DNA of 64,000 bases, taken from the NCBI GenBank assembly GCA_905160935.1, contig CAJHZI010000428.1:317001-381000 (forward strand). Reading direction: 5' to 3'. Shown in pieces: positions 18,301-46,500 of this stretch. Position numbers and translations under genes: made by a program. The stretch's first letter is position 1. Every line of letters begins with the position of its first letter. The notes under the pieces are model-generated. The model was given only the letters and a program-made list of their open reading frames with translations. It was not told the DNA's origin and made no database searches. Source of the DNA: Enchytraeus crypticus (taxonomy: Eukaryota > Annelida > Clitellata > Enchytraeida > Enchytraeidae).

Positions 18301-21300
18301 GTTTTAGTTTATGCCGAGTTCTCAGTTGGAAGATTTTACGATTTTTAAGTTTCCCCTGGTCCGTTTTTCCTTTCTAAACGTTGAGGAGATAGATTTTTAG
18401 ACTGTCTGTTTTTCCCTAGGCAACCGAAAACTCGGCGTGCCTTTTATACGTCTGTTCTATTTTTCATTCTGATTGGCTTTTCAAACAGTTGACGTCATGA
18501 AAACTCTGACCTGAGGCTTCAAGATTACGTAAAAGAGTTACCAAAGATTTTATAAGTTTTATTAAACTCTCGTTAAATAGAATATTCTGCAAAGTTCTAT
18601 AGCCTTCATGTGATCGATATTCCATGATGATATCTGGCACCTTTGATGCCGCTCTTTTGAACAGTTGTGCGTTTTAGAGTCGAAGAATTATTGTCCATTT
18701 TACCAATCCTACGAATGTACCTATATTTTGTGGAAATTAAAAGAAAGGTATTAATTAATCGTTAATCTAAAGCGCAAAAATGCGAGAGACTTTAGAGGCG
18801 ACAAAAGAGCAACGGAGGAATGCAAATGGAAGCTATGCAGTACTTATATATACAGTATATATATATATATATATATATATATATATATATATATATATAT
18901 ATATATATATATATATATATATATCTTTATTTTGCCACTCGGGAAAACAACACACATTCATTGCACAGTGATTTAGAAATATTTATTTAGAAGCACCCTA
19001 TTCTACAGGGTCAGGATTAATTCCTCATTCATCTCTCAAATATTTGATAACATTGCTTCAGGTGACCTTCATGTATTCGTCCACCTACATGATTGTGGCT
19101 CTCAGTCTAGACCGGCTTGACGCCATCTTGCGACCTCTTGCATTTACTGGGAGGGGTGAGCACTTCTGCTATTTATAATTATTTTAACATTATATCCTAG
19201 ACGACTATATTGATCATCTCTGTCTCTCTCTCTCTCTCTCGTCTCTCTCTCTCTCTTCTCTCTCTCTCTCTTCTCTCTTAGTGCACTGCCTACTGGCAGG
19301 CCCATGGTATATAACTCCTCCACTCTTCTTTATCTTCCGCCTTCCTCTTCATTTCCACATACGAGTGGGTCTTTGAATCATCTAACATACCTAATCTCGG
19401 CCTGCCTCTGCCTCTTTTTCCTTCCATTCTACCTTCTATGACCTATTTTAATAGATCTTCCCCCCTTAGAATGTGTCCTATCAATCTCTTCTTCCAGTTA
19501 TTGAACAGCCATATATAATTATATATATAACTATTTGATAAACTGTCTAATATTTAATTTATAATTTAGACTAATTGATAAAATATGGCCTGACTGCTTT
19601 TGATTGATGAAATTGATCAACTATTTACTTTCTAAGTAATTAATTGACCCATTGAGCTTTTTTACTAACTCAAGATGGATGAATACGATTCAGATATCTC
19701 AAAATAATTTCCAAATGACTGGGAAGTTAATTGATTGATTGATTTTTGATTCATTTCTCTCAAATCCCAGAACTAACTGTGTAACATCAACAAAGAACTG
19801 AAATGTTTAAAAGAATTAAAGTTAATTCTAATTAATTATATTAATAGATCGTTTCATTGAACTATAGATCGATTGATTTGATTGATTCCTAGCTGTAATT
19901 CTTGATATAGTCCCTTATCACGGACTTAAGCTGTTGTTATTTGATTGTTTAATTCGTAAAATTTACTGATTGATTAAATGATTAATTGAATGATTGATTG
20001 ATTGGTTGATTGATTGATCAATTGATTGATTGATTGATTGCAGTATTTCGTGCTAAGATGCTGGCTCTAGTGCTAAGATGCTAGCTCTAGTAGCCTGGTT
20101 GCTATCCATGATTGACTGATTGATTGATTGGTTGATTGATTGATCGATCGATCGATTGATTGCAGTGTTTCATGCTAAGACGCTAGCTCTAGTCGCCTGG
20201 TTGTTATCCATGATTGACTGATTGATTGATTGATTGGTTGATTGATTGATCGATTGATTGATTGATTTTTTGATTGAATGATTGATTGATTGATTAATTG
20301 CAGTGTTTCGTGCTAAGATGCTAGCTCTAGTAGCCTGGCTGTTATCCATGATTGATTGATTGATTGATTAACTGATTGATTGACTGAACGAATGATTAAC
20401 TGATTGATTGATTGATGGCTTGATTGATTGATTGATTGATTGCAGTGTTTCGTGCTAAGATGTTAGCTCTAGTAGCCTGAATGTTATCCATGATTGATTG
20501 ATTGATTGATTTATTGATTGATTTATTGATTGATTGATTAACTGATTGATTGATTGCTTGATTGATTGATTGATTGCAGTGTTTCGTGCTAAGATGCTAG
20601 CTCTAGTAGCCTGGCTGTTGTCTATGATTTATTGATTGATTAATTGATTGATTGATTGCAGTGTTTCGTGCTAAGATGCTAGCTCTAGTAGCCTGGCTGT
20701 TGTCTATGCTCTTCTCAATTCCCTCCATCGTCTTCAGTCACGTGGTCTCTCCCACTGGAGTGACTGAGTGCAGACTGGATCTACTCAGTCCTACTAACTG
20801 GAGAGTTAGTCTCTCTCTCCTCTCTCTCTCTCTCTGCATCTCTCTGTCACTCTCTCTCTGTATCTCTCTCTGTATCTCTGTATCTCTGTCTCTCTGTCTT
20901 TCTCTCTCTCTCTCTCTCTCTCTCTCTCTTTATATATATATATATATATATATATATATATATATATATATATATATCTTTCTCTCTCTCTCTCTCTCTG
21001 TATCTCGGTATCTCGGTCTCTGTCAATTTTTTTTTCTCTCTCTCTTTCTCTCTGTATCTCTCTCTCACTCTCTCTGTATCTCTGTCTCTGCCATTTTCTC
21101 TCTCTCTCATTCTCTCTCGCTCTTTCTCTGACTCCCCCTCTGATGTTTTTTCTCTCTTCTCTCTCGCTCTCTCACTCACTATAGATGCCGTCTCTAACAT
21201 CATCCTTGTATGAGGAAACGGACATTAAACCTTTATTATATATATACATGTTAAATATCGACTTCTTGATTTACTGATTTATTGATTTACTGATTGATTA

Positions 21301-43536: not shown

Positions 43537-46500
43537 CTAAACACTCTTGCGACCTCCCAGACCAAACGACCACCTGCTGGTCAGTCCAGCTTGCTTCTGC
43601 TGCTGATCAGCTGCTTGTCTAGCTATCTCCTGCTGCTCCTGTCAGTCAATCAATCAATCAATCAATCAGTCAATCAATCACTCAGTCAATCAATCAGTCA
43701 ATCAATACACTCACTCAAACAATCAATCAATTAATCACTCAGTGAATCAATCAATCAATTAGTCAACCAATCAATCACTCAGTCAAGCAATCTAGTAAAT
43801 CAATCGATCAATCAATCAATCAATCAGTCAATCAATCAGTCAATCAATCAGTCAATCAATCAGTCAATCAATCACTCAAAAAATCAATCAGTCGATCAAT
43901 CAATCAATCAGTCAATGGTTGATCTGCTCTCAGCAGAGCCTGAGGCAAGGCTAGGTCGTCTAAATCAATCAATCAATCAATCAATCAATCAGTCAGTCAA
44001 TCAATCAATCAATCAATCACTCAATCAATCACTCACTCAAACAATCAATTAGTCAAGCAATCTAGCAATCACTCACTCAAACAATCAATTAGTCAAGCAA
44101 TCTAGCAATCACTCAATCAATCACTCAATCAAACAATCAATTAGTCAAGCAATCTAGCAATCACTCAATCAATCACTCACTCAAACAATCAATTAGTCAA
44201 GCAATCTAGCAATTCAACAATCAAATCAGATATTAGTAAATGATGCACATTCTTTCAAAGTAATGTGAACTGCTATAACAAAAACAGTGCATATCGACAC
44301 ATCATGTCATGTCACGTGATCAATCAAGCATCCTAGGGCTGGTTCCAGCAAAGATTTCCCTATGATGTTCCTCCACAAGACTCTATTCTTCGCTGTCTTC
44401 ATAAACACATCACAGAGTATAAAATTAAATAGTTGATCTATTTTAATAGTTGATCTACTATTATATCAGAAATAGGGTTATCTCAACGTACAAACCCAGC
44501 TTTAATAAAGCACAAGTAGAAATAGGGTTATCTCAACGTACAAACCAAACTTTAATAAAGCGCAAGTAGAAATAGGGTTATCTCAACGTACAAACCCAGT
44601 TAATAAAGCGCAAGTAGAAATAGGGTTATCTCAAACCATAAACCTTATTTTTAGTGAAGTTTAAGTTACGACATTGATATTTTAATATAAACGATCACAG
44701 CCTGTTACACAGCCGGAAGTGTTAGTCATATAACAGATAACATGTACAAAGCAGAAAAACAAAATCATCTTTATCTAATTCATCTTAACAGCTCATACAT
44801 AAACTGAAAAAGAAGTTCTAAATTAAATCAGGGACTTATAAACAAGCAGCAAAACAAACAGTAACTACATGGCAAATAAGAGTTTACCAGAAGTTGTTGT
44901 TGTCTCTCTTTAAACACAGCAATCGGGTCATCAAACTGAGAGTAGTACTCTAACACTGATCTCACATCCTCCACGTTACTAGTGGCCAACACTGCATCAA
45001 TAAATCAATCAATCAATCGATCAATCAGTCAATCAATCAATCAATAGGGTCATCAAACTAAGAGTAGTACTCTAACACTGATCTCACATCCTCTACGTTA
45101 CTAGTGGCCAACACTGCATCAATCAATCAATCAATCAATCAATCAATAAGGTCGTCTAACTGAGAGTAGTACTCTAACACTGATCTCACATCCTCCACGT
45201 TACTAGTGGCCAACACTGCATCAATCAATCAATCAATCAATCAATCAATCAATCAATCAATAGGGTCATCAAACTGAGAGTAGTACTCTAGCACTGATCT
45301 CACATCCTCTACGTTACTAGTCAGCTCTACGTGGCCAGCACTGCATCAATCAATCAATTAGTCATTAAGTCAATGTGTGACAGAATTATTAAATCAAAAG
45401 TAATACAATATAACAAAAAAAAACATAACACATATTAACATAAACATAACAACATATGTTATCAAGCAGTATTTGTTAACAGGCGTTATGTCACATTAGC
45501 TCTCTAGATTTAACAGCTCAATCAGTTAGCCCGCTAGAACATATTGCGATACTTTTTTAATCAATAGTAAGCCTTGCTGTCACATAAAATCCTGATTTGA
45601 GTTTAACCCATGATTAGATGTCTCCAACTCATATGAGTTGAACACAAGACGACAGATACAGTCTTGATATAAGAGGAGAATACTGCACCAATTGTTTAGA
45701 GCAGCACCGTGACATACACAATTAACAATTCCCAAATTCATCATCAGTAAACAACCCACCTGGAACCTCTGAATCCAGTGACAAAACAGACATTAATTCA
45801 GCGCTGGTCAGCAAGGACTGATGCTGAATTAACCCTACCCAAGCAGAACAAGAACAAGCACTAATCCGTATTAAATCTAACGGTTGCTAAAAGTTAAATA
45901 AAACAATTGTCATTAACTTTGTCAACAGAAGGCAACATCAGTGATGGGCCAGCCCAATCAACTATCAAGCACCTTAGAAAGAGAGCCTGATGGAAGTTGA
46001 CCGAAGAGCCAATTATTATTAACACTATTATTATTATTATTAACAATCATTATTGACAAGTAAACGAGAGCATGTTCTTGTTCTTACTCCTGAGAAACGC
46101 AGCGAGATCAATGAGCGTTCTGTCTCTATCATCGCCTGTCCACTTCTTGAGCAGGAAAGCGTTCTGAGGGTGAAGAGAGAATGCTTTCTCATCACAGTCC
46201 ACGATGATCACCTTCGATAGGTCGCGGTTCAGACACTCTAGGTCCTGCACAGCAATGGTAATATACTACAATCAGATCCTCAGTCCATGACAACATCGAT
46301 GACGCTTTACGCAAAAGTTTACTGCTACAAAATAACGAGGCCGAGAATTTTCTATTAATATTAAATATTTTTAAAATTATTTCTTCATCTCAGAAGAATT
46401 TTTTAGTAGTGATTAAGACGATGCATCATTGCAGGACACATCAGTTTGTGGCCTGCAATGATGCATCATCTTTATCACAACCAGAAAATTCTTCTGAGAT

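Follow-up and report, generated by a model that had tools for sequence, protein, structure and literature searches.

In a 64-kb stretch of Enchytraeus crypticus DNA (C335:317001-381000, hereafter the window, taken from a 524-Mb assembly of 802 contigs), two introns end in tandem copies of their own intron-exon boundary, one in a gene for a rhodopsin-type G-protein-coupled receptor (GPCR) and one in a TIM50-like gene. These duplicated boundaries are real. We read them, with a probability of roughly 75%, as 'mirages': minisatellite-like tandem duplications of an intron-exon boundary that recur at intron 3' ends with or without a GATT repeat, are amplified, and leave decoy copies that are spliced out. 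A preliminary description of this DNA knew of no named system of the kind, although amphioxus 'mirages' had already been named (PMC3087553, PMC3902484); it also held that GATT tails drive repeated capture of splice acceptors throughout the genome, a proposal that our results support in its genome-wide scope but not in its cause.

The GPCR array occupies 19961-20708 (+ strand) within an intron at 19156..20661 that has its donor, GTGAGC, at 19156 and CAG before 20662, with phase kept across it. Five extra boundary copies (20044-20626, +) precede the 3'-most copy, which is the real exon; each unit consists of a GATT tract, CAG and the same first 47 exon bases, and all of the copies break after ATG and then return to GATT. 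The first GATT tract (19961..20040, +) lies ahead of decoy 1 (20041..20110, +), whose CAG is followed by an exon copy that starts with TA rather than TG and contains an internal 20-base duplication. Decoys 2 (20163..20212, +), 3 (20301..20350, +) and 4 (20443..20492, +) likewise join CAG to an exon copy, of 47 bases in decoy 2, with 6, 2 and 5 differences, respectively, and decoy 4 carries an in-frame stop. Decoy 5 (20577..20626, +), the nearest to the real exon, matches its first 47 bases exactly. The real exon (20662..20804, +), with CAG at 20659 and donor GTTAGT at 20805, stands at the end of the third GATT-flanked copy series and is included in the joined translation of the gene, which matches PF00001 (E 1.3e-33) and has the oxytocin receptor as its top PDB sequence match.

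The TIM50-like array (45374-44888, - strand) belongs to an intron at 44992..46087 (-), with donor GTAAGA at 46087 and its acceptor before 44991. Here there are three extra boundary copies (45340-45046, -), each with a GATT tail, CAG and about 70 exon bases; the decoy exon copies begin at 45340, 45215 and 45113, and the 3'-most copy is the real exon 9 (44888..44991, -). Decoy 1 (45262..45343, -) has CAG, an insertion and an in-frame stop, while decoys 2 (45148..45219, -) and 3 (45046..45117, -) open with GCAG, the latter again with an in-frame stop. At the point where the copies run into GATT, the real exon reads GATTG. An alignment to PDB TIM50 (4qqf, E 2.6e-38) spans the splice junction of exon 9. 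In the last intron of the same gene, a protein-like remnant at 43917-43965 (-) sits between GATT arrays; an AG precedes it, no donor follows, and the window yielded no parent for it.

Self-BLAST of the real exon starts against the decoys gave E values of 1e-7 to 3e-24, so the resemblance is not due to chance, and the geometry given in the preliminary description, with the acceptor kept, an early break in the exon and a GATT spacer, held for both cases. The window's genes mark the DNA as animal, and three of them were modelled via homology, the third being calcineurin B (+). Among them we placed 19 acceptors and 15 donors; 14 of the acceptors are covered by an alignment to a PDB chain or Pfam model, and five (TIM50 e2, e3, e4 and e10 and calcineurin B e2) were set by reading frames only. 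Upstream copies of the exon start are present at 2 of the 19 acceptors, and no local copies were found at the 15 donors. Base-by-base reading indicates that this is not an exonic duplication that creates a new intron, since the unit includes the existing intron tail and the exon body is single. The decoys of each window locus share one exon break. Three pairs of neighbouring GATT spacers (S1-S2, S2-S3 and S4-S5) have a common order of variant GATT units, reached by 1, 0 and 9 of 500 shuffles, respectively. The window holds 18 local tandem arrays other than microsatellites, two of them across acceptors. Examples of its tandem arrays lie at 42275-42659, 53553-54219 and 62709-63221.

A search of the whole assembly for a GATT array, CAG, 30-60 bases and a second GATT array returned 69 forward and 166 reverse matches, many of them phases or copies of a single locus, and the reversed control pattern returned none on either strand. 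Among the matches listed there were 42 distinct places, the window's own included; 36 were fetched, and those at C282, C294, C322:1196627, C327 and C373 were left. At 27 of the 36, tandem copies are present and the 3'-most runs into an open frame of at least 37 amino acids, the frame being the longest of three and taken without a homology check. Nine places failed this automatic rule (L009, L011, L012, L024, L032, L036, L040, L047 and L053), of which L032 is by eye an apparent case with an AAG acceptor. At L031 the copy series and the matched pattern are on opposite strands, and at L043 as many as nine upstream acceptors precede the last one. A process that multiplies splice acceptors across the genome, as the preliminary description had supposed, is in kind borne out. 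In addition to its short decoys, L020 (C155) has two copies (at 193 and 992) that extend into long exon-like sequence, as though entire exons had been repeated too.

The frequency of such duplications was estimated from exons chosen by protein family, blind to GATT. PF00118 (CCT) gave 57 matches, from which five on long single frames (L059, L077, L078 and two further pieces) were excluded, leaving 52 from loci with a G+C content of 36.8%; for PF00270 (DEAD), with 50 matches, we used the first 20 listed whose open frame was shorter than 200 amino acids. Upstream boundary copies were found at 12 of 42 CCT acceptors and 3 of the remaining 10, and at 4 of 20 DEAD acceptors. Together this makes 19 of 72 sampled acceptors, or 18 without L100, a borderline DEAD case in which only about three exon bases are common with the copies.

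These duplications might be no more than chance events in a genome rich in minisatellites, where duplications in introns and across boundaries survive and those in exons are lost. The number of tandem arrays in the window and the almost repeat-free bodies of exons both fit this idea, which we nevertheless consider unlikely, given where the copies lie. In a separate test on the 42-exon CCT set, 10 of the 42 acceptors had copies of the exon edge, as did 1 of 38 donors (Fisher 0.008) and 7 of 238 control positions inside introns (1.8e-5), in a small sample of non-independent genes and by a rough test from which three real cases of the CCT upstream-copy count are absent. Local tandem repeat coverage also peaks at acceptors: it is 21-26% from -200 to +25 around exon starts, 1-4% from +50 to +150, 6-11% in the bins shown further upstream and 2-5% at donors. 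Selection may act less strongly on extra acceptors than on extra donors, which would explain the preference for acceptors, or this preference may have a mutational cause. A broader proposal is that intron 3' ends are a hot spot for tandem duplication in this lineage, with about a quarter of acceptors affected, several times the intronic background and far above donors, that the resulting lengthening is a leading force of intron evolution, and that its cause, mutational or selective, is tied to the acceptor; we advance this tentatively, at slightly under even odds.

A second alternative is that the GATT tails are the driver, a fragile microsatellite pairing with GATT-like motifs in the exon and thereby recapturing the acceptor. 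Both window cases do lie at GATT tails (2 of 9 GATT-tailed acceptors against 0 of 10 others, P 0.21), many GATT loci exist across the genome, exon breaks have more bases in common with GATT than randomly placed ones, and a small number of loci are broken at more than one position. The genome-wide pattern search could catch GATT cases only, however, and in the family-picked exons the rates with and without GATT are equal. CCT acceptors have copies at 4 of 12 GATT-tailed sites (9 of these in the 42-exon set, 3 with copies, and 3 in the other 10, 1 with copies) and at 11 of 40 others, and the single GATT-tailed DEAD acceptor has none. Combining the two families gives 4 of 13 against 15 of 59 (one-sided P 0.47), and adding the window gives 6 of 22 against 15 of 69 (P 0.39), in a sample low in power for a small effect and with P values that are optimistic because the exons come from few genes. 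Arrays without GATT also have the same anatomy as those with it, as seen in six read base by base and then in further ones. Equal rates at introns without GATT were what the preliminary description itself had named as evidence against GATT as the driver, and within the power of the sample that is what we found, so that we judge this alternative improbable.

Two further alternatives fare worse. The copies could function as alternative acceptors or, as the preliminary description had suggested, seed new exons or isoforms: every decoy retains CAG and a GATT tract with YTNAY motifs, and mirages have been proposed as founders of new introns (PMC3087553, in the part available to us). We think this very improbable and find no support for such seeding, since reading on from all eight window decoys leads to a stop, pure GATT has TGA in every frame and, being free of GT, offers no donor, and reverse transcription PCR (RT-PCR) at amphioxus mirages showed regular splicing (PMC3087553, same part). 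That the arrays are an assembly artefact is scarcely credible, even though a draft genome had one amphioxus mirage wrongly assembled (PMC3087553, as far as the accessible text goes) and the copy number at a single locus here may still be wrong, because the copies of a locus vary in substitutions and spacer length and the pattern recurs on many contigs.

For mirages, a plausible course of events would begin with a local tandem duplication of the intron tail together with the AG and at most some tens of exon bases, the exon-side end being joined to the intron tail by microhomology of a few bases or by a short filler, in a manner like microhomology-mediated end joining or template switching. Amplification of the unit, a step that our data support, then accounts for most loci having one break position and several copies. 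Since most decoys at a given locus end at the same break, what the preliminary description called 'repeated capture' is for the most part a single founding break at each locus with later amplification; L042, L056 and L058 are broken at more than one position. Copies 5' of the intact exon would become intron, be spliced out and later decay, and they would probably be kept because they fall in the intron. Exon definition would select the 3'-most copy, because the exon body and donor follow only that copy.

Several points limit this account. The sampled exons come from few genes, with the 15 CCT cases on 5 contigs, a single assembly lies behind all loci, and splicing past the decoys is something we infer from the DNA. 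Microhomology-mediated joining or template switching is in line with the junctions at GATT loci, where the 18 without filler have on average 2.1 bases common to exon and array and random breaks in the same exons have 0.67 (0 of 20000 simulations reached the observed value), but these values were partly set by eye at loci chosen by the GATT pattern, with L032 and L042 omitted; ten or so other loci carry fillers of 1-6 bases, and at several junctions exon and array have no base in common. Most spacer pairs other than the three given above are no better than shuffled GATT units. In the edge test, C554:858347 is counted as an acceptor and is unconvincing on sight, and a donor case at L088, seen by eye, is uncounted. 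At L088 itself, the duplication is on the donor side, with ATCGCTAG followed by GTATGTCTGC repeated downstream, which suggests that 5' boundaries may be affected as well.

Among the intron tails of this genome, GATT is a common type. A GATT array lies within the last 60 nucleotides before 9 of the 19 window acceptors, whereas random positions in the same genes lead to an expectation of 1.6 (P 5e-6) with the two cases masked or 2.4 (P 2e-4) unmasked, and there is none at the 15 window donors; GATT thus extends in this window beyond what the preliminary description had noted. Antisense GATT is absent from two of the window genes and covers 0.7% of positions in the third. Besides the two duplicated boundaries, the GATT-tailed acceptors, all without copies, belong to GPCR e3 (21266..21324, +) and e4 (22063..22153, +), TIM50 e5 (48469..48531, -), e6 (47369..47584, -) and e10 (43639..44224, -, placed by reading only), and calcineurin B e3 (56682..56825, +) and e5 (62256..62494, +). 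Such tails are rarer in the wider samples (12 of 52 CCT and 1 of 20 DEAD acceptors), making 22 of the 91 acceptors examined in all. Pure GATT contains neither AG nor GT and has YTNAY motifs on the sense strand only, and it is therefore compatible with a 3' splice site; the tract may act as an array of branch points. GATT acceptors have 6.0 YTNAY motifs against 1.6 at others, and a pyrimidine share of 0.49 against 0.61. A longer AG-free zone at GATT acceptors was unsupported (median 48 against 30.5 nucleotides, P 0.41). In our searches of the open-access literature, GATT arrays at intron ends were nowhere described as a feature of a whole genome. A long open frame (-) includes, at 35215-35253, the reverse strand of a GATT tract, which reads SINQSNQSI, the antisense repeat being free of stops.

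A source for these tails was sought in an element like a short interspersed nuclear element (SINE) that ends in GACGTTAAATTCTT(ATTG)n and occurs eight times in the window in both orientations, with 3' ends and ATTG-repeat tails at 4773-4831, 7663-7600, 17356-17420, 22558-22622, 41121-41059, 48922-48870, 57125-57061 and 6007-5945. An origin from SINE tails is unsupported for most of the long acceptor GATT arrays, because these have no adjoining SINE body. A second dispersed element, at 56506-56640, 29328-29458, 17989-18118 and 61198-61300, has a tRNA-like head, which we take to resemble promoter boxes; a search for tRNA genes found none. Within a calcineurin B intron there is also a reverse transcriptase frame of the long interspersed nuclear element type (57892-59142; PF00078, E 4.3e-30).

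Our findings place the window's arrays in a known class of structure, and what is unusual here is their high frequency and the excess at acceptors. In the papers cited here, mirages are described at a handful of lancelet genes, namely the globins BflGb6 and BflGb9 together with Adh3, troponin C and PGBD5 as cited, and their mechanism has been called unclear (PMC3087553 and PMC3902484, the latter adding PGBD5 and citing Adh and troponin C, in the portions available). The BflGb6 mirage comprises the 3' intron end and the 5' part of exon 2 in 6 and 3 units in two haplotypes, with 81-100% identity among units and the acceptor AG retained in many (PMC3087553, available text). The window and genome loci likewise have tandem units spanning the intron-exon boundary, one of which is the authentic boundary into the exon, as indicated by the TIM50 alignment, the GPCR model and the open frames at 27 of 36 places. 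Unlike the amphioxus mirages, as far as the accessible parts of those reports go, many units here are GATT-tailed, acceptors in the present sample are affected far more than donors, and a frequency, 19 of 72, has been measured; the amphioxus mirages, for their part, are known with haplotype and RT-PCR data, whereas our loci come from the sequence of one assembly. This genome offers mirages for sampling at roughly one acceptor in four, with countable breaks, copy series and controls. Why boundaries, and above all acceptors, duplicate, and how the spliceosome skips up to nine upstream acceptors, as at L043, become directly testable questions, and if the acceptor hot spot is true, intron lengthening via acceptor duplication would be a leading force of intron evolution in the lineage.

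Two other systems share single features with these loci. Intron gain by tandem duplication of an AG/GT proto-splice site also involves tandem duplication of splice signals, but there a new intron is made, whereas here an existing one is lengthened (PMC2891723, in the part available). In CFTR, a polymorphic GATT(5-7) tract similarly lies just upstream of a 3' splice site, in the intron before exon 7, and a minigene gave minor exon 7 skipping with both tested alleles (PMC4449874, as far as the available text extends). By the same text, CFTR has one short tract and no duplicated exon start, unlike the loci described here, in which the exon start is itself part of the repeated unit.

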